Shown here in pieces: positions 3,093 to 27,391 of a stretch of 28,098 nucleotides of DNA; position 1 is the stretch's first letter, and each line of letters begins with the position of its first letter. A model generated the notes under the pieces. It had not been told where the DNA came from, made no database searches, and worked only from the letters and a program-made list of their open reading frames with translations. This DNA comes from a virus: positions 1-28,098 of the IMG/VR virus record IMGVR_UViG_3300030430_000921. One strand, written 5' to 3'. The position numbers were made by a program, and so were the translations under genes.

Positions 3093-5242
3093 TGCCTATG
3101 ACAGCTTTAAAATTTAAACCTGGTATTGTATCTGATATTACATCTTATAGTAATGAAGGCGGTTTTGTTGATGGTGACAAAGTAAGATTTAGATTTGGTT
3201 TCCCAGAAAAGTTTGGTGGTTGGGAAAAATATAGTCCTAATCAATATCTAGGTAGTGCCAGAAGATTGCATAACTGGGTGGCTCTTGATGGTTCTGATTT
3301 CATGGGTATTGGCACACATCTTAAATACTACATAGAAGAAGGTCAGACATTTAACGACATTACACCCATTAGAAGCACTACAAGTGCAGGTGATGTAACA
3401 TTTTCTGCAACAAGCGGATCAACAACAATTACAGTCACAGATACAGCACATGGTGCTAATGAAAAAGACTTTGTAACATTTTCTGGTGCGGCAACTTTGG
3501 GCGGAACAATCACCGCTACGATACTAAACGCTGAGTTTCAAATAACATCATTGATAAGTTCTAATGCTTACACAATTACATCAAGTGTTGCAGCAAATTC
3601 ATCTGATACTGGTAATGGTGGTAGTAGTGTTGTAGGCACATATCAATTAAATGTTGGATTAGACAACACAGTAGGCGGAACTGGTTGGGGTGCTGGTCAA
3701 TGGAGTGGTACAACATCTGGTGCTTTAGCAACACAATTAGCAGAAGCCTTGGATGCAAGTGAAACTGCAATAGATGTAGACAGTGCAACAGGTATTACGG
3801 CTGGTGATTTAATATTGATAGAACAAGAACTAATTACAGTTGGCACAATAAGTTCTAATACTTTAGGAACTGGTGGAGGTCCATCAACCAGAGGTGCAAG
3901 TGGTACAGATGCAGCCACACACGCAGACAATACTCTTGTAAGATTAGCAACTGGTAATGCAGATTCTGCCAATGACTTTGTTGGATGGGGTGATGCAGCA
4001 AGTGTCACGACCCCTGGAGCACAGATAAGACTCTGGTCACATGATAATTTTGGTGAAGATATTATTATAAACCCAAGAGATGGTGGATTGTTTTACTGGG
4101 ATAAAACAAATGGTTTAAGCACTAGAGCCGTAGAACTTAGTGCAACATCCACTTACTCTGGAGAAACAAGCGTGCCAACTATTGCTAAACAAGTTCTTGT
4201 GTCAGACCAAGACCGTCATGTCATAGTGTTTGGCTGCGATGGATTAGGTGCAAACTCGTCTGCTACACAAGGAAACGGAATACAAGATCCATTGTTGATA
4301 CGTTTTTCTTCACAAGAAAATCCAGTAGATTTCTTTCCAACTGCTACAAACACAGCAGGTGATTTAAGATTAGGTGGTGGATCTACCTTTGTACAAGCTG
4401 TTGAAACAAAACAACAGATATTAGTCTTCACTAACAAAACACTACACGCTATGAAGTTTATAGGTCCACCATTTACGTTTGGTCTTCAAGAATTATCAAA
4501 AAACATAACTATTATGAGTCCTTTTTCTGCCATAGCTGTTGAAGATGCAGTGTATTGGATGGGAGTAGATACATTTTATATATACTCTGGTGGTCAAACA
4601 ATACAACTGCCATGCACTGTAAAAGACAAGGTATTTTTAGATTTTAACTTCGAAGAGCGTGATAAGGTTCATGTAGGTTTAAACTCTGAATTTAGTGAAA
4701 TATTATGGTTTTATCCATCCTCTAGTGGAACAACTGTAGATAAGTATGTTGCGTATAATTATTTAGAAAAAGTTTGGTATTACGGCACACTTGCAAGACA
4801 AGCATGGCTTGATAGAGGTATAAGAAACTTACCACAAGCAACAGGAAATCAATATCTTTATAACCATGAAGTAGGATTTGATGATGATGGGTCCGCTATG
4901 ACATCATTTATTGAATCTTCTGCTATTGACATAGGTGATGGTGATAAATTTTTATTTATTAAGCAAGTTATACCAGACATTACATTTAACGGATCAACGA
5001 GTGTTAACCCAGATGTATCGTTTACAATGAAATCTAAAAACAATCCTGGTGCTAACTTTAATCAAACTACAGAAAATACAACACAAAGATCTGCAACAAC
5101 GCCAGTAGAACAATTTACACAAAAGTTAGATTATCGTTTACGAGGTAGGTCTTTTGCTTTAAGAATAGATTCTACATCACTAGGGACAAAATATAAATTG
5201 GGTACACCAAGAGTAGATGTTAGAGTGGATGGTAGACGCTAA
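3092..5242 (+). CDS. Packaged-DNA stabilization-like / tail tube closure protein
   Basis: A 716-residue protein. The N-terminus 'MPMTALKFKPGIVSDITSYS…GGFVDGDKVRFRFGFPEKFGGWEKY' followed by 'ARRLHNWVALDGSDFMGIGTH' is typical of large marine-phage proteins annotated as stabilization protein (P22 gp10-like class), placed at the head-tail connection. The middle (about 90-300) carries inserted Gly/Thr-rich beta domains. The C-terminal half has Trp/Tyr-rich blade-like strands ('VEDAVYWMGVDTFYIYSGG', 'KYVAYNYLEKVWYYGTLARQ') suggestive of a beta-propeller. The start overlaps the previous stop (TAATG); an in-frame ATG two codons downstream is an alternative. The assignment rests on sequence pattern and neighbourhood, not on a search. 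Confidence 0.68.
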   Translation: MPMTALKFKPGIVSDITSYSNEGGFVDGDKVRFRFGFPEKFGGWEKYSPNQYLGSARRLHNWVALDGSDFMGIGTHLKYYIEEGQTFNDITPIRSTTSAGDVTFSATSGSTTITVTDTAHGANEKDFVTFSGAATLGGTITATILNAEFQITSLISSNAYTITSSVAANSSDTGNGGSSVVGTYQLNVGLDNTVGGTGWGAGQWSGTTSGALATQLAEALDASETAIDVDSATGITAGDLILIEQELITVGTISSNTLGTGGGPSTRGASGTDAATHADNTLVRLATGNADSANDFVGWGDAASVTTPGAQIRLWSHDNFGEDIIINPRDGGLFYWDKTNGLSTRAVELSATSTYSGETSVPTIAKQVLVSDQDRHVIVFGCDGLGANSSATQGNGIQDPLLIRFSSQENPVDFFPTATNTAGDLRLGGGSTFVQAVETKQQILVFTNKTLHAMKFIGPPFTFGLQELSKNITIMSPFSAIAVEDAVYWMGVDTFYIYSGGQTIQLPCTVKDKVFLDFNFEERDKVHVGLNSEFSEILWFYPSSSGTTVDKYVAYNYLEKVWYYGTLARQAWLDRGIRNLPQATGNQYLYNHEVGFDDDGSAMTSFIESSAIDIGDGDKFLFIKQVIPDITFNGSTSVNPDVSFTMKSKNNPGANFNQTTENTTQRSATTPVEQFTQKLDYRLRGRSFALRIDSTSLGTKYKLGTPRVDVRVDGRR

Positions 5243-5631
5243 TGTTAATAACTAGTATTCCACAGTACATTCAAGGTATTACAAATGCAAAAGTAGATTT
5301 AACGACAACAAATCTTACAACTTTGTTAACAGTTCCTAGTGATGCCGATTTTAATGCAGCTATTGTAAACTCTATATTAGTGGCAGAAGATAGTGGCAAT
5401 GCTGATACAATTACAGTGCAACTTGTTAGTGGTAGTGATACATTTGTTTTGTTCAATGTCAAAGCAGTAGGAGCTAATACAACTGTAGAATTACTTACAA
5501 AAGATTTAATATTACAAAGTGGTGAGGTATTAAAAGTACAAGCCGCAACAGCCAACAGATTACATGTTGTGGCAAGTATTCAAGAGTTATCTAAAACAAG
5601 GGTAACAACAAGTGCGATATCAAGAATTTAA
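5242..5631 (+). CDS. Small beta-rich virion protein
   Basis: A 129-residue protein with alternating hydrophobic/Thr strands ('VDLTTTNLTTLLTVPSDADF', 'TVQLVSGSDTFVLFNVKAVG', 'ELLTKDLILQSGEVLKVQAA'), consistent with a single beta-sandwich. Small proteins of this type next to stabilization-like proteins in marine phages are usually virion components. The start overlaps the upstream stop (TAATG), so it is coupled to the 716-residue protein. No signal peptide or catalytic motif is visible. Function unknown beyond the structural context. Confidence 0.65.
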   Translation: MLITSIPQYIQGITNAKVDLTTTNLTTLLTVPSDADFNAAIVNSILVAEDSGNADTITVQLVSGSDTFVLFNVKAVGANTTVELLTKDLILQSGEVLKVQAATANRLHVVASIQELSKTRVTTSAISRI

Positions 5632-5675
5632 AAGGGCGTATAGACGAATTTGTTAAAATAATATAAGGTAACAAT

Positions 5676-6482
5676 ATGAGTTTAGGTAAATTATTAAAAC
5701 AAATAGCACCAATAGCCATAAGTGCCTTTGCAGGACCAGCAATAGGTACTTCTTTTGGTGCTAGTCCTTTCGTAAGTAGAGCTTTAACAGGAGCTCTAAC
5801 TAGTAAATTGATGGGTGGTAGATCAAAAGATGCACTAAGAACCGCACTTTTAGCAGGTGTTAGTGGTGCAGCCTTTGACAAATTTAGTGGTGCAGATCAA
5901 GCTGTAACTGGTCCAGATCAAACAATTGTTCGTGGTGGATCATCACAGCCTCCTCCTAGTAACCCTGATATTGCAAAAAGAATGGGAATAGATAAAGCTA
6001 CTGCCGTACCAACCGAAACAGCTACAAAAGGCATAGCAGAAACTTTTAAACCACGGACATTTAGTGCGGAATTACTTAAATCTGCTGGTGTTGGTGGCGA
6101 TAATCTGTTTGCTCGTTTACTTAATACACCATTGGGTGAAGGTCTTACAGCAGGATTAATTGCACAATTATTAGCTGGTGGTGATGAAGACGAAGATACT
6201 AGGACAGCATTTGAAAAACGACCATTTGGAGCAGGTGGTCCAGGCGGCAGACTAGGTGGGATTACCTTTGCAAAAGAAGGTGGTGAGATGGGATTTCCAA
6301 GACGTACAGGCGGCATTGATCCATCAGAAGGTTCTGGAACAAAAGATGATGTGCCTGCTTTGTTAATGGCAGGTGAATTTGTTTTGACAAAAGATGCAGT
6401 AAAGGGTCTAGGTGATGGCAATCAAAGAAAAGGCATCCAAAGAGCATATAACATGATGGATAAATTAGAAGCGAGGGCGTAA
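5676..6482 (+). CDS. Putative ejection/virion protein with Gly-Ala-rich N-terminus
   Basis: A 268-residue protein. Residues 1-70 are hydrophobic and small-residue rich ('IAPIAISAFAGPAIGTSFGA', then 'LRTALLAGVSGAAF'), as in proteins that insert into membranes during DNA ejection. A second hydrophobic segment lies near residues 150-170 (GEGLTAGLIAQLLAGG). The C-terminus contains 'DDVPALLMAGEFVLTKDAVK', a conserved closing motif of such marine-phage proteins, followed by a basic tail. The start follows AGG about eight bases upstream, after a 44-base gap from the previous gene. It heads a run of four genes that look like a short-tailed phage's internal or ejection proteins. The ejection role is inferred. 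Confidence 0.6.
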   Translation: MSLGKLLKQIAPIAISAFAGPAIGTSFGASPFVSRALTGALTSKLMGGRSKDALRTALLAGVSGAAFDKFSGADQAVTGPDQTIVRGGSSQPPPSNPDIAKRMGIDKATAVPTETATKGIAETFKPRTFSAELLKSAGVGGDNLFARLLNTPLGEGLTAGLIAQLLAGGDEDEDTRTAFEKRPFGAGGPGGRLGGITFAKEGGEMGFPRRTGGIDPSEGSGTKDDVPALLMAGEFVLTKDAVKGLGDGNQRKGIQRAYNMMDKLEARA

Positions 6483-14892: not shown

Positions 14893-14948
14893 AAAAAAAT
14901 AAAAAAAGATAGTTTTATTATTGACATTGTTGTAATGATGTCTATATT
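14893..14948 (+). promoter_or_regulatory. Promoter P1 of the replication operon (A-tract + TTGACA + GTAATGAT core)
   Basis: An A7-T-A7-G tract (14893-14908), as in an UP element, precedes TTGACA (14921-14926), a 16-base spacer and TATATT (14943-14948). The spacer and -10 form GTAATGATGTCTATAT (14932-14947), the first of five copies of a shared core. It drives the gene starting at 14989. Confidence 0.75.
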
Positions 14949-15423: not shown

Positions 15424-16287
15424 ATGGCTTTGGAGATAATCACTGCCGAGCAACGTATGGCAGAAAAGAGAGGTCATAAGATGGTCATCTGTGGTCAAAG
15501 TGGTGTGGGCAAGACAACTCTTGCCCGTACACTTGATCCAGATAAGACTTTATTTATTGATCTTGAGGCAGGTGATACTGCCATTAAAGATTTTCCTATT
15601 GATGTAATAAGACCAAAAACATGGCAAGAGTGTCGTGATTTTGTTTGTTATATCGGTGGAGTAAATCCATCTTTATCAAGAGAGCCGTATGACTCAATTC
15701 ATTATGAACGAGTGATGCAAGAGTTTGGTGACAAGCTTGTCCAGATGAACAAGTATGATACTATTTTTGTTGATAGTATAACTGTTGCTGGTCGATTGTG
15801 TTTTCAATATTGCATGTCACATCCAGATAATATTATTGAAAGATCTGGTAAAGTTGATACTCGTGCCGCATATGGTATGCACGGTAGAGAGATGATGGGT
15901 TGGCTTACACATCTACAACACATTAGAGACAAGAATGTAATTTTAGTTGGCATACTTGACTCTAAGATAGATGAATATGGTCGCACTAATTATGAGTTGC
16001 AGATTGAAGGATCTAAAACTGCGAGAGAACTACCTGGCATTGTTGATGAAGTTATAACAATGACAGTGATGGGTGGAGCAGATAATGTAAAACCCTATAG
16101 AGCTTTCGTGTGTCAAACTCTTAATGAGTGGGGATACCCAGCTAAAGATAGATCTGGAAAGCTTGACGTAATGGAAGAGCCACATTTAGGTAGGCTTATC
16201 AACAAGCTTAACGGTCAGACAGATAAAAAGGACTTAAATTTTGTTAGTCCGCAATCACAACCAACACAGAAGGGAGAAGTACAGTGA
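15424..16287 (+). CDS. Sak4-like RecA-fold ATPase (single-strand annealing/recombination)
   Basis: A 287-residue P-loop ATPase. Walker A is GQSGVGKTT (residues 24-32) and Walker B is TIFVDS (113-118). The compact core without an N-terminal extension suits phage Sak4/AAA_24 recombinases, which anneal or exchange single strands with help from a phage SSB. The next gene is SSB-like, the usual pairing. GAGGAGG lies about six bases upstream of the ATG, which follows the previous stop directly. The C-terminus ends in a Gln/Lys-rich tail. The protein acts in cytoplasmic phage DNA replication and repair. Family confidence is high, the exact activity inferred. Confidence 0.85.
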   Translation: MALEIITAEQRMAEKRGHKMVICGQSGVGKTTLARTLDPDKTLFIDLEAGDTAIKDFPIDVIRPKTWQECRDFVCYIGGVNPSLSREPYDSIHYERVMQEFGDKLVQMNKYDTIFVDSITVAGRLCFQYCMSHPDNIIERSGKVDTRAAYGMHGREMMGWLTHLQHIRDKNVILVGILDSKIDEYGRTNYELQIEGSKTARELPGIVDEVITMTVMGGADNVKPYRAFVCQTLNEWGYPAKDRSGKLDVMEEPHLGRLINKLNGQTDKKDLNFVSPQSQPTQKGEVQ

Positions 16288-16889
16288 TTGATTTAAATAA
16301 CATAAGTGGTGGAGGAGGCTCAGATTTCGAGTTGATTCCAGATGGCACAATTGCCAGAGCAATTATTACTATTAAACCTAATGCAGTTACAATGCCTGAG
16401 TTTAGTAATACTCCAATATTTAGGGCATCACAAACTACTTCATCAAAGTGGCTTGAAGTAGAGTATACAATAATTGGTGGTCAGTTTGATAAACGTAAGT
16501 TTTGGACTAATCACTTTTTTGATGGTGATGCCAAAGATGATAATGGTGTATCCAAGTCAAGAAAGATTGGATTGCAGTGGTTGAAAGCAGTTGTTGAAAG
16601 TCATAATAATATTTCAGCAATGGACGCTTCGCCAGAGGCTCAAGCAGTCAGACAAATAGATATGCAAAAAGGTGGAGTAGCTTCTATCAATGGCATGAAT
16701 GTTTGTGTTAAAATTGGCATTGAGAAATCAAACGATCAACAATATGCTGATAAGAATAAATGCAGAATTGTAATGACACAAGGTATGGAAGGTTACATAC
16801 CAAGTGGTTCTGTTAATCCATCACCAATGGGGGGCGGCACTCCACCAGCAACAAATGGTGGCAACACTGTTCCAGATTGGGCAAAGTAG
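16284..16889 (+). CDS. DUF669-like single-stranded DNA-binding protein
   Basis: A 201-residue protein starting at GTG 16284, overlapping the previous stop as GTGA, with GGGAG seven bases upstream. The core reads 'IPDGTIARAIITIKPNAVTM', 'SSKWLEVEYTIIGGQFDKRK', 'KIGLQWLKAVVES' and 'MNVCVKIGIEKSNDQQYADK', matching DUF669-type phage OB-fold proteins. The C-terminus is Gly/Pro/Asn-rich and ends PDWAK, a flexible SSB-like tail. Coupling to the Sak4-like ATPase suggests they act as an annealing pair on single-stranded DNA. Confidence 0.75.
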   Translation: MIDLNNISGGGGSDFELIPDGTIARAIITIKPNAVTMPEFSNTPIFRASQTTSSKWLEVEYTIIGGQFDKRKFWTNHFFDGDAKDDNGVSKSRKIGLQWLKAVVESHNNISAMDASPEAQAVRQIDMQKGGVASINGMNVCVKIGIEKSNDQQYADKNKCRIVMTQGMEGYIPSGSVNPSPMGGGTPPATNGGNTVPDWAK

Positions 16890-16901: not shown

Positions 16902-16974
16902 TTGCAGGGGCTAACTGACCTTAGTCTACTTGCAACTCGCTTGGGTAGTGCGAGTGCCCTAAAACTACCCACCA
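16902..16974 (+). ncRNA. Structured leader RNA with H-type pseudoknot
   Basis: In the 106-base gap before the zinc-finger gene, TTGCA (16902-16906) pairs with TGCAA (16931-16935) around a hairpin GGCTAA/TTAGTC (16909-16914 with 16921-16926). Next, ACTCGC (16935-16940) pairs with GCGAGT (16950-16955), while the loop bases GGGTAGT (16943-16949) pair with ACTACCC (16964-16970). This gives interleaved 6- and 7-bp stems, two bases in loop 1, none between stems, and GCCCTAAA in loop 3. The 3' end reads ACCA. It lies about 10 bases before the ribosome binding site. The geometry is visible; a riboswitch or translational-control role is inferred, and no known class was recognised. Confidence 0.6.
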
Positions 16975-16995
16975 TCTATAGCCAGTGAGGATCTT

Positions 16996-17280
16996 ATGAA
17001 AACGTATGAACAAGCAAAAAAAGAACTAGATAAAGAAGTAAACAAACACATTGAATATATTAAGCATATAAAAAAAACTAAGTCTTTTGATTTTAAATGT
17101 CCTCAATGTAAAAAAGTTAAAAAAGTTAGAGTTGTGTCTTACAACTTAGGCAGAGAAGGTCTTAAATATTGTCATGCAAATTGTAGACAGGCTGCTCAAA
17201 GACAAAGAGACAAACAAAAGTTTATTGATGAAATTAATAATTTAAAACAAAGAATCAAAGAGTTAGAAAATGATTCTTAG
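16996..17280 (+). CDS. Small zinc-finger protein
   Basis: A 94-residue basic protein. Residues ~35-60 hold CPQC and, after ~23 residues, 'YCHANCRQAAQRQR', matching the small phage/bacterial zinc-finger pattern C-x2-C…YC-x3-CRQAAYRxR. Lys-rich helices flank it, and the C-terminus is a likely coiled coil (INNLKQRIKELEN). GAGG lies five bases upstream of the ATG. The gene follows the pseudoknotted leader, which may control its translation, and overlaps the helicase start by 11 bases. Nucleic-acid binding is likely; the function is unknown. Confidence 0.72.
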   Translation: MKTYEQAKKELDKEVNKHIEYIKHIKKTKSFDFKCPQCKKVKKVRVVSYNLGREGLKYCHANCRQAAQRQRDKQKFIDEINNLKQRIKELENDS

Positions 17281-18952
17281 ACCATATCAAGAGATAGCAG
17301 TACAAGATGCTTCTGATGCACTTGATAAACACAAAAACACAATAGTTGTAGCACCAACTGGTGCTGGTAAAACAATTATGCTATCTGCTCTGATTGGCAA
17401 GAGATACTCTAAAGGCAAAAAGATTTTAGTCCTGCAACATCGAGATGAACTTGTTGGACAAAATACAAACAAATTTACTCGTGTTAACCCAAAAATAAGC
17501 ACAAGTGTTGTAGACGCATCCGAAAAAAATTGGTCAGGTAATGCTGTTTTTAGCATGGTCCAGACCTTATCGAGACCGAACAATTTGGCTAACATGTCTA
17601 AAATCGACATGATGGTGATAGATGAAAGTCATCATGCAATAGCCGATACATATATGAGAATTATCAAAAAAGTCAAAGAAGCTAACGAGTCAGTTGAAAT
17701 TGTTGGCTTTACTGCTACACCTAATCGTGGTGACAGAAAAGGGTTGAAAGATGTATTTAACAACTGCTCACACCAGATAGAAGTTGCTAGTTTGATACGA
17801 GAAGGTTTTCTTGTACCACCAAAAACATTTGTTATAGATGTCGGTGTCCAGCAAGACTTGCAAAATGTTCGTAAAACTGTGTCAGATTTTGACATGGGAC
17901 AGGTCGAACAGATTATGAATAAACGTGCCATTAATGAAAAGATAGTTGAAGAGTGGCAGGAAAAAGCAGGCAGTAGAAAAACAGTTATATTTTGTAGCAC
18001 AGTAATTCATGCACAAGACTTATGTGATGAATATAGACGTGCACAAATCCGTGCTGAAATTGTGACAGGTGAAACACCATCAGACCAACGAAAGCAAATA
18101 CTACATGATCTTGAGCACGGTGATGTGCAAGTTGTGGTCAATGTTGCAGTATTAACAGAAGGCTTTGATGCACCACCTGTCAGTTGTATTGTGCTTACAA
18201 GACCGTGTTCGTATAAATCTACAATGGTGCAGATGATTGGTCGTGGACTACGAACAATAGATCCAGAAGCACACCCTGGCGTAATTAAAAAAGACTGCAT
18301 AGTTTTAGATTTTGGTACAAGTGTTTTGACACACGGTTCACTTGATGAAGGTGTGGACCTAGATGGTAAAGATCAAATGCGACAAGGAACTGGACCAGAA
18401 AAAATATGTCCAAACTGTAAGTGCCTTATACCATTAAGTGTTCGTGTATGTCCTATGTGTGGACATGAAATCGAAATGCAGGCAAAAGAATTATTAGAAA
18501 CATTTAACATGACAGAGGTTGATCTGATAGATAGATCACCATTTAGATGGATAGATTTATTTAACAACGGCAGGTGCATGTCAGCCAGTGGTTTCAACGG
18601 GTTTGGTTTAGTTGCACATTTAGATGATCTATCCGTGGCGTTAGTTAAACGTACAAGGGGTAGACTTAGAGTTGTGGGTGTCGGCACCAAAGAACAAGCT
18701 TTAGCTTCTGCTGATGATTTTTTGAGGCAAATAGAAGATAGTGATGGTGCTAAGAAAGGTAAACGCTGGTTAAATCAAGCTATGACAGAAAAACAAAGAC
18801 AAGCTTTAGCTAGGAAAAACAAGGTAGTTAGTCAGTTAGATCTTAGTTTTAGTAAGTATAAGGCGGCTTGTTGGTTAAATTATTTGTGGAATAAACAAGA
18901 AATTGATGGCAAAGTTTTAGACTATTACGAAGGAGATAACAATGCAGCGTAG
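17270..18952 (+). CDS. Superfamily 2 DEAD/H-box helicase with C-terminal zinc ribbon
   Basis: A 560-residue helicase. It shows a Q-motif-like RPYQ at residues 4-7, Walker A APTGAGKT (28-35), motif II DESH (118-121), motif III TAT (148-150) and motif VI QMIGRGLR (321-328). After the two RecA domains comes a four-cysteine zinc ribbon (CPNC at 380-383, CPMC at 394-397) and a ~150-residue C-terminal domain. The pattern suits phage UvsW/RadD-like helicases that remodel branched DNA or start replication forks. It lies between the SSB-like gene and the nuclease/primase genes, consistent with replication and recombination. It overlaps the previous gene by 11 bases and the next by 11. Confidence 0.9.
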   Translation: MILRPYQEIAVQDASDALDKHKNTIVVAPTGAGKTIMLSALIGKRYSKGKKILVLQHRDELVGQNTNKFTRVNPKISTSVVDASEKNWSGNAVFSMVQTLSRPNNLANMSKIDMMVIDESHHAIADTYMRIIKKVKEANESVEIVGFTATPNRGDRKGLKDVFNNCSHQIEVASLIREGFLVPPKTFVIDVGVQQDLQNVRKTVSDFDMGQVEQIMNKRAINEKIVEEWQEKAGSRKTVIFCSTVIHAQDLCDEYRRAQIRAEIVTGETPSDQRKQILHDLEHGDVQVVVNVAVLTEGFDAPPVSCIVLTRPCSYKSTMVQMIGRGLRTIDPEAHPGVIKKDCIVLDFGTSVLTHGSLDEGVDLDGKDQMRQGTGPEKICPNCKCLIPLSVRVCPMCGHEIEMQAKELLETFNMTEVDLIDRSPFRWIDLFNNGRCMSASGFNGFGLVAHLDDLSVALVKRTRGRLRVVGVGTKEQALASADDFLRQIEDSDGAKKGKRWLNQAMTEKQRQALARKNKVVSQLDLSFSKYKAACWLNYLWNKQEIDGKVLDYYEGDNNAA

Positions 18953-22615: not shown

Positions 22616-22817
22616 GAAGGGCAGATACTCTAAACAATCAAGACAGTACAATGCTTTGCGTGCCTACACAAAAAAAATAATGGCAAAAAAGACGCAGCCA
22701 GATGAATCCGAACAATTATTCGAAGACGATCCCAGGGCAGCAAAAGAAATAGAATATGGTAGAGTCAGACGTAACCATACGACTATCTGGACCAGAAGTA
22801 ATATCACTGAATGTTAA
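22608..22817 (+). CDS. Small basic hypothetical protein
   Basis: A 69-residue protein, MSKKGRYSKQSRQYNALRAY, then 'TKKIMAKKTQPDESEQLFED', with a strongly basic N-terminus and a mixed C-terminus. It overlaps the primase-helicase by eight bases and has no strong ribosome binding site, so it depends on coupling. It contains a CGAACAATTATTCG imperfect palindrome at 22709-22722. No domain was recognised; the basic N-terminus would suit nucleic-acid binding. Confidence 0.5.
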   Translation: MSKKGRYSKQSRQYNALRAYTKKIMAKKTQPDESEQLFEDDPRAAKEIEYGRVRRNHTTIWTRSNITEC

Positions 22818-24863: not shown

Positions 24864-25277
24864 AAGTGGGATTATCGGGGTAAAAACTTGCTGTGTCGGC
24901 AGCCAAGGAGACCGAACAATTCCTACAGGCATCGGGATCGGGCTAGTGATCGGGCTGTTACCTGCTGCGGAACCGTATAATTGTTCGCAGTCAGGTGCAG
25001 GTACAGCATAGGGATCGGGGGTGTCCACGTTCCTTCTTCGTAGTCATACGTACAATTGTTCGGATTCAGGCACAGCAGGTCAGGCTGCCCAGGAAGGATC
25101 GGGGTGAACGGGGATCGGGACTCGCTGCCTCCTGGTTGAATACGCACAATTGTTCGGAGTCGGTACCAGGCAGCAGGTGTACCAGGAGTCGCTGACGCAG
25201 CAGGTCAACGCCTGGGGCGTGAAAGCGTACAATTGTTCGTACTCACAGCAGCAGGTACAGCAGCGATACCAGGCATG
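24864..25277. repeat. GC-rich noncoding island of short repeated words
   Basis: About 410 bases with no supported gene and composition unlike the AT-rich surroundings. It is built from recurring words: CGAACAATT/AATTGTTCG (24913, 24979, 25054, 25148, 25231), GCAGCAGGT/ACCTGCTGC (24960, 25170, 25197, 25248), and many ATCGGG and CCAGG/CCTGG copies. AATTGTTCG-N-A-N-TC followed within about 25 bases by CAGCAGGT recurs as a composite unit (25051-25080, 25145-25178, 25228-25256). ORFs here lack ribosome binding sites. The island ends at the A-tract of promoter P3. Function unknown. Confidence 0.75.
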
Positions 25278-25330
25278 AAAAAAAATAAAAAAAGTTGTTG
25301 ACATTAATATTGTAATGATTACTATATATT
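25278..25330 (+). promoter_or_regulatory. Promoter P3 (A-tract, TTGACA, GTAATGATTACTATAT core)
   Basis: A8-T-A7-G (25278-25294) precedes TTGACA (25298-25303) and GTAATGATTACTATAT (25312-25327). Depending on which bases form the -10, the spacer is 16 (TACTAT) or 19 (TATATA). The leader continues CAGCCATAGGAGAAA, nearly identical to that after P4. The ATG inside the core (25315) is not a start. Confidence 0.75.
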
Positions 25331-25359
25331 ATATTAATTCAGCCATAGGAGAAATAAAA

Positions 25360-26280: not shown

Positions 26281-26341
26281 AAAAAAATAAAAAAAAGTTT
26301 AATTACCTGTTGACATATTAGTAGTAATGATTACTATATAT
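26281..26341 (+). promoter_or_regulatory. Promoter P4 (A-tract, TTGACA, GTAATGATTACTATAT core)
   Basis: A7-T-A8-G (26281-26297), TTGACA (26310-26315) and GTAATGATTACTATAT (26324-26339), with the same nine-base TTGACA-to-TAATGAT spacing as P3. The leader CAGCCAATAGGAGAAA also matches P3, so the whole module of about 80 bases looks duplicated. Confidence 0.75.
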
Positions 26342-26366
26342 ATAAACAGCCAATAGGAGAAAACAA

Positions 26367-27312: not shown

Positions 27313-27328
27313 AATTGTTCGTATTCAC

Positions 27329-27356
27329 TTGAATATTGCAATCATTACTATATAAT
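27329..27356 (+). promoter_or_regulatory. Promoter P5 for the amidoligase gene
   Basis: TTGAAT (27329-27334), a 16-base spacer and a perfect TATAAT (27351-27356). The variant core GCAATCATTACTATAT (27338-27353) matches 14 of 16 bases of P3/P4. AATTGTTCG (27313-27321) ends seven bases before the -35. Confidence 0.75.
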
Positions 27357-27391
27357 AAATTTAAGTTAAACAACAAAAAGAGGAAATTAAG

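Follow-up and report, generated by a model that had tools for sequence, protein, structure and literature searches.

In phage T4, the operator of gene 32 consists of a pseudoknot and a less structured ribosome-binding site. The pseudoknot nucleates the binding of the phage's single-strand-binding protein (SSB), which then covers the ribosome-binding site; the gene for a homing nuclease overlaps the pseudoknot (PMC535899). Two other structured RNAs are the STAXI motif (RF01728), which is a pseudoknot RNA near genes for SSB and other DNA-handling proteins, and the L17 downstream element (RF01708), which lies directly behind the gene for a nucleic-acid-binding protein (PMC2864571). Here we describe an RNA element from uncultured phages that would, by analogy, work like the T4 gene 32 operator without belonging to it.

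We analyzed a 28-kb virus record from IMG/VR (IMGVR_UViG_3300030430_000921, positions 1 to 28,098), which we refer to as the window. Unless another locus is named, coordinates are those of the window; the parts of the element and the genes around it are on the + strand. The element lies in a replication module that also encodes a Sak4-like protein, an SF2 helicase, a Cas4-type exonuclease, and a primase. Upstream is a gene of the phrog_2300 family (16284-16889), which encodes a candidate SSB with a predicted OB fold. Behind the element, as cargo, is a Cys-rich open reading frame of 94 amino acids (16996-17280; CPQC...CHANC) with no Pfam or PHROG match. It is followed by an SF2 (ResIII-type) helicase (17270-18952), which is the usual immediate neighbor of the element in relatives.

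The fold, which is about 68 nt long, consists of a hairpin (16903-16934; helices A and C) and an H-type pseudoknot (16935-16970; helices D and E), and helix B connects the former to the loop of the latter. The resulting architecture is two interlocked knots, with the helices running A B C C' A' D E D' B' E' from 5' to 3'. Helix A, which is supported by covariation, pairs TGCAGG (16903-16908) with CTTGCA (16929-16934). The apex of this hairpin, which includes helix C and its loop (16912-16928), is variable in sequence and is 13-22 nt long across copies. Helix D pairs ACTCGC (16935-16940) with GCGAGT (16950-16955), and helix E pairs GGGTAGT (16943-16949) with ACTACCC (16964-16970). Loop 1 (TT, 16941-16942) crosses helix E, the GGGTAGT strand of helix E joins GCGAGT of helix D without a gap, and loop 3 (TAAA, 16960-16963) is A-rich. 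The third crossing helix, B, pairs GGGC (16908-16911) with GCCC (16956-16959). The first base of helix B also belongs to the innermost pair of helix A in the alignment, so the two helices may compete there. Beyond the element are a Shine-Dalgarno-like GTGAGG (16985-16990) and the ATG of the next gene (16996-16998), which is 25 nt past the element.

A preliminary description of this sequence had proposed a pseudoknotted RNA in the gap between the two cistrons, with D and E as interleaved, gapless helices behind a closed hairpin. All of the strings that it named are present in the window, D and E lie as it described, and the same fold recurs across IMG/VR relatives. The outer helix of its hairpin also stands, but its inner helix (GGCTAA/TTAGTC, 16909-16914 and 16921-16926) was partly misassigned: these strands can pair, but they compete with helix B, which is better supported and which was overlooked.

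Comparative evidence strongly supports that the pseudoknotted structure is real. Since the element alone folds barely better than shuffled sequence (z = -1.33, which is unexceptional, and with a program that is blind to pseudoknots), we set single-sequence folding aside as uninformative, and settled the fold by comparison with relatives. We aligned 34 divergent copies by hand, helix by helix, and verified each copy in the fetched DNA. In this alignment, whose sequences are related, whose cells are not independent events, and whose copies were chosen for pairing, 185 of 199 cells of helix A are paired, as are 133/136 for B, 193/193 for D, and 230/230 for E. When whole 3' strands were swapped between sequences, the mean was 0.70 for A, 0.87 for B, 0.59 for D, and 0.76 for E, and the observed value was never reached. 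Two-sided changes occur in all 6 pairs of helix D and all 7 pairs of helix E; compensatory changes in both stems were the test that had been set for the original proposal. Helix B occurs as CGGC/GCCG, GGGC/GCCC, TGGC/GCCA, AGGC/GCCT, CGGT/ACCG, and CCTC/GAGG. D and E are interleaved, they abut coaxially, and compensatory changes are kept, as in an H-type pseudoknot.

An independent MAFFT alignment of 23 copies gave similar support, with 96.2% of cells paired (versus 78.2% ± 1.0 when shuffled) and two-sided changes in 18 of 22 pairs. None of 500 shuffles was as high, and sliding the partner left just 36-48% of cells paired. A covariance model from which helices B and E were left out has one match in the window (E = 2e-15), the window being one of its training sequences. 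A model with helices A and D only recovers three divergent copies from outside the training set (L256, L233, and L318; E = 0.0009 to 0.006) and also finds L260, which is not in the hand alignment (E = 0.0005). The element lies close downstream of 146 of 168 distinct upstream proteins. These loci were gathered largely by protein search (and some by RNA pattern), so the element was not selected by pairing alone.

The alignment also indicates which strand folds. Across the 34 copies there are 20 G-U pairs and 7 A-C mismatches (11 and 0 in helix D), so it is the RNA of mRNA sense that adopts the fold. Outside the helices, little is conserved: loop 1 is variable, as are the apical loop and the junctions, and the only nearly invariant bases are the AA before the 3' strand of helix E (31/34 copies) and the A after it (33/34). 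The near-lack of conserved unpaired bases speaks for recognition by shape or for mechanical stability, rather than for a ligand pocket or a catalytic core. It makes a riboswitch, a ribozyme, and a tRNA-like structure all look like poor explanations.

A structural descriptor found the same fold as 97 distinct element sequences in 397 fetched IMG/VR loci, although these loci overlap, and the count may include a few false positives (an earlier version of the descriptor had 16 matches in 2.0 Mb of mono-shuffled sequence). A pattern scan matched at least 119 stretches, and further loci came from scans for variants of the RNA or for the upstream protein by itself. The carriers are hundreds of phage contigs from uncultured phages, and all of those seen are from IMG/VR; we infer, not from sample records, that they are mostly marine. 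The element was absent from the cultured phage and bacterial genomes that we searched. Homologs of the upstream gene in Wolbachia phage WO, AcaML1, a Megaira phage, and Rhodospira and Bradyrhizobium contigs were candidates for carrying copies, and those we inspected lack the element.

The preliminary description had recognized no class, and Rfam 15 agrees: there was no family at the curated threshold in the window or in 12 divergent loci. At a relaxed E-value, the window had a single match, to a snoRNA (13.9 bits), which lies outside the element. We found no description of the element in the open-access literature. The element is a real RNA class that is not in Rfam 15; it adds a common and well-supported structured RNA, whose fold order is also missing from Rfam, in hundreds of phage contigs. 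We saw no genuine tandem copies and no match to RF01728; STAXI is a tandem array in Enterobacteriales, whereas this element is a single complex fold in uncultured phages. It shares with the L17 downstream element its place behind the gene for a nucleic-acid-binding protein, but differs in structure and hosts and has no Rfam match. An apparent duplication in IMGVR_UViG_3300029309_000369 (L077/L108) is explained by a scaffold gap (16417-16428) that joins two haplotypes, which mimics a duplication; these haplotypes differ in the cargo gene behind the element. In L296, L307, and L308, the intact element has, just upstream of it, a degenerate sequence that repeats part of the first hairpin (ATTAGTGGCA...).

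The upstream protein has no Pfam or NCBIfam match (Pfam does not support the name DUF669, which we considered), and phrog_2300 has no assigned function. An AlphaFold2 model (pLDDT of 86.5) predicts an OB fold. With this model, Foldseek matched chains of RPA and SSB, though weakly (best E-value of 0.0027), and VIA-align gave Z = 9.2 over 118-123 residues for PrgE of pCF10, whose structure has also been solved with DNA, and Z of about 4 for RPA, PriB, and SSB. Because of the predicted OB fold and the matches to PrgE, RPA, and SSB, we consider the upstream gene to be a candidate SSB gene.

The genes behind the element are diverse. Most often, the next gene is an SF2 helicase whose N-terminus is MILRPYQ or MLLRPYQ. 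Others include Cys-rich open reading frames, an HNH endonuclease (L046), a DNA methyltransferase (L190), an endolysin-like gene (L294), and small helix-turn-helix-like open reading frames, among others. The tie to a zinc-finger gene that had been suggested from the window is not supported, as most copies are followed by an SF2 helicase or by other genes and many zinc-finger homologs lack the RNA. Searching with the Cys-rich open reading frame found 30 loci, and about half of them have the same structure.

What is most constant about the element's context is its position relative to the next start codon. It mostly begins 0-21 nt past the upstream stop codon. In 149 of 151 loci of the non-coding type, the next gene starts 12-34 nt downstream of the element (median of 25 nt over all 151); the two exceptions (L307 and L308) are probably members of a coding clade. 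In that clade (21 loci), the next gene begins at an ATG that overlaps the stop codon of the upstream gene and precedes the element by 27-31 nt, so that the element itself is translated. Its subgroups encode unrelated peptides from the same fold (for example, EVVKLGKGGAGAVNPP in L203 and SFRSSTNAGEGEASALHNSP in L233), so it is the RNA that is under selection. Considering both types of loci, the constant context is that a start codon lies before or after the element at a distance of no more than about 30 nt. A 306-amino-acid gene and other sequence separate the SSB-like gene from the element (about 1.15-1.2 kb) in the L042 group, and the element is still 26-27 nt ahead of the next start codon. 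Similarly, in L150, about 60 nt is inserted between the SSB gene and the element, and the distance to the start codon is kept.

The parallels to the gene 32 operator of T4 and RB69 are a phage replication gene, an OB-fold SSB (here predicted), and relaxed sequence with strict structure (PMC535899). In addition, both pseudoknots are a few tens of nucleotides upstream of a start codon (here, in 149/151 non-coding-type loci), although copies of the coding clade depart from this placement, as their start codon lies upstream of the element. There are other differences. The T4 operator is a simple pseudoknot followed by UUAAA repeats, which are absent from the window's spacer, while this element has an extra hairpin and a third crossing helix. 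And the T4 operator precedes the SSB gene itself, whereas this element follows an SSB-like gene, so simple autogenous repression of SSB, as in T4, does not apply.

Our preferred explanation, which we hold with about even confidence, is that the element is a cis-acting structured RNA that is recognized by its shape and that most likely controls the translation of the next gene. It would act at the mRNA boundary that follows the candidate SSB gene, as a rigid knot within about 30 nt of the next gene's start codon, read by shape and not by sequence. When the knot is bound or stably folded, initiation or early elongation at the next gene would be reduced; when it is unbound, or opened by ribosomes, ribosomes would pass. 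That the action is at the level of translation is something we infer. A translational operator would be in keeping with the fixed distance to the start codon, the indifference to the identity of the next gene, the conservation of shape alone, and the adjoining OB-fold protein. Against it, the variety of next genes gives no hint as to function, and we found no conserved alternative pairing with the Shine-Dalgarno region.

We considered other ways in which the element might affect translation. Sequestration of the Shine-Dalgarno sequence by the C-rich 3' strand of helix E was rejected, as its duplex energies with its own downstream region were no better than with swapped regions. For the 3' strand of helix A against the downstream region, there was a weak signal (0.011, in one of seven tests), and one group has a recurrent TCTAGC close to the start codon. 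Read-through or frameshifting at the stop codon was also rejected, as a second stop follows at once in the window and we saw no slippery site by eye. A leader peptide (IARAN-type) in the window's group was rejected as well, as the other groups lack it.

If the element is a translational operator, then the most plausible binder would be the phage's own OB-fold protein, by analogy to T4 gp32 and its pseudoknot, but this is speculative. We are quite doubtful of the full proposal, in which the OB-fold protein binds a triple-pseudoknot RNA and so sets the output of whatever gene adjoins it. If it is true, then arriving cargo, such as a helicase, a zinc-ribbon protein, an HNH nuclease, a methyltransferase, or a lysis gene, would be controlled by the state of replication, and one clade of phages would have folded the operator into coding sequence.

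The strongest alternative to an operator is that the element forms a 3' boundary for the SSB-like gene, as a mechanically strong knot that would block either 3'-to-5' decay or the run-on of ribosomes. An abundant SSB message would thereby outlive the downstream part of the operon. This would fit with the element's usual start just past the upstream stop codon, and structure without sequence conservation suits a mechanical barrier. Also, the L042 group has another structured RNA directly behind the SSB gene. However, the element in the L042 group is far from the SSB gene and yet is placed before the next start codon, and in one clade it is inside a translated frame. We consider a barrier to decay possible but rather unlikely.

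H-type pseudoknot riboswitches such as SAM-II and preQ1 have a short loop 1 and an A-rich loop 3, and the D/E pseudoknot resembles them in these respects. A metabolite riboswitch that controls translation of the next gene would suit a compact pseudoknot ahead of a ribosome-binding site, which was the layout that the preliminary description had compared to riboswitches. But a pocket would have to be built from unpaired bases, of which almost none are conserved; moreover, the ribosome-binding site is outside of the knot, there is no conserved expression platform, the next genes do not share a pathway, and in one clade the element is within coding sequence. A riboswitch seems improbable.

We also think it improbable, and slightly more so, that the element acts on the transcribing RNA polymerase, as do the put RNAs of HK022, which are antitermination RNAs. 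In favor of this, the element is indifferent to the gene that follows and is tolerated in both coding and non-coding sequence. But the element is about 2 kb into the operon, far from the promoter-like site at 14921, and antitermination would not explain the fixed distance to the start codon.

The HDV ribozyme has the fold order P1 P2 P3 P1' P4 P2', and leaving out helix E, all 34 copies have the same nested double-pseudoknot order (A B C C' A' D D' B'). Nevertheless, a self-cleaving ribozyme that is related to HDV-like ribozymes is very unlikely. The junction that bears the catalytic C in HDV, which would lie between the 3' strands of D and B, is just 0 or 1 nt in all 34 copies; the 3' strand of A usually runs straight into the 5' strand of D; P1.1 and the conserved core bases are missing; and the pseudoknot with helix E is extra. 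Also, cleavage within the open frames of the coding clade would destroy the mRNA of that gene.

Similarly, there is very little chance that the element is a tRNA-like structure at which RNase P or RNase Z would separate the two messages, even though D and E form one coaxial stack of 11-13 bp that is followed by A in 33/34 copies and, in the window, by the ACCA that had suggested an acceptor end: ACCA is next in just 9/34 copies, the stack is not fixed at 12 bp (helix E has 6 or 7 bp), and ARAGORN found no tRNA in the window.

Overall, the range of mechanisms is narrowed. Because pairing is kept where almost nothing else is, the element is a clean case of an RNA that is selected for its shape. 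Some copies are intergenic and others are within a coding region, and the element marks a site of cargo-gene exchange, which offers a testable route to how arriving genes come under control. In L046, an HNH endonuclease gene (5127-5684 of that locus) lies directly behind the element, which parallels the overlap of the homing nuclease gene with the T4 pseudoknot and suggests that the spot is a target for mobile genes.

Other features of these phages may also be of interest. In L173 (5645-6000), L178, L179, L183, L184, and L188, a second conserved and structured-looking non-coding segment (AATTTTCTGGAAGTCAGGATTACGGCGAAAGCTGTGCGTCTCCAGAGATAG...) lies directly behind the SSB-like gene and is followed by a long hairpin; Rfam had no match to the second segment in L042. 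In the window, intergenic regions of the right arm contain palindromes, CG(A/T)ACAATTGTTCG, at 24974, 25049, 25143, 25226, 26229, and 27201, with a weaker one at 22707; these dispersed sites look like the operator sites of a repressor. Near-identical promoter-like repeats (TTGACA...TTGTAATGATTACTATATAT) lie ahead of short blocks of genes at 14921-14948, 25298-25335, 26310-26347, and 27324-27361, and three of these are spaced about 1012 nt apart.
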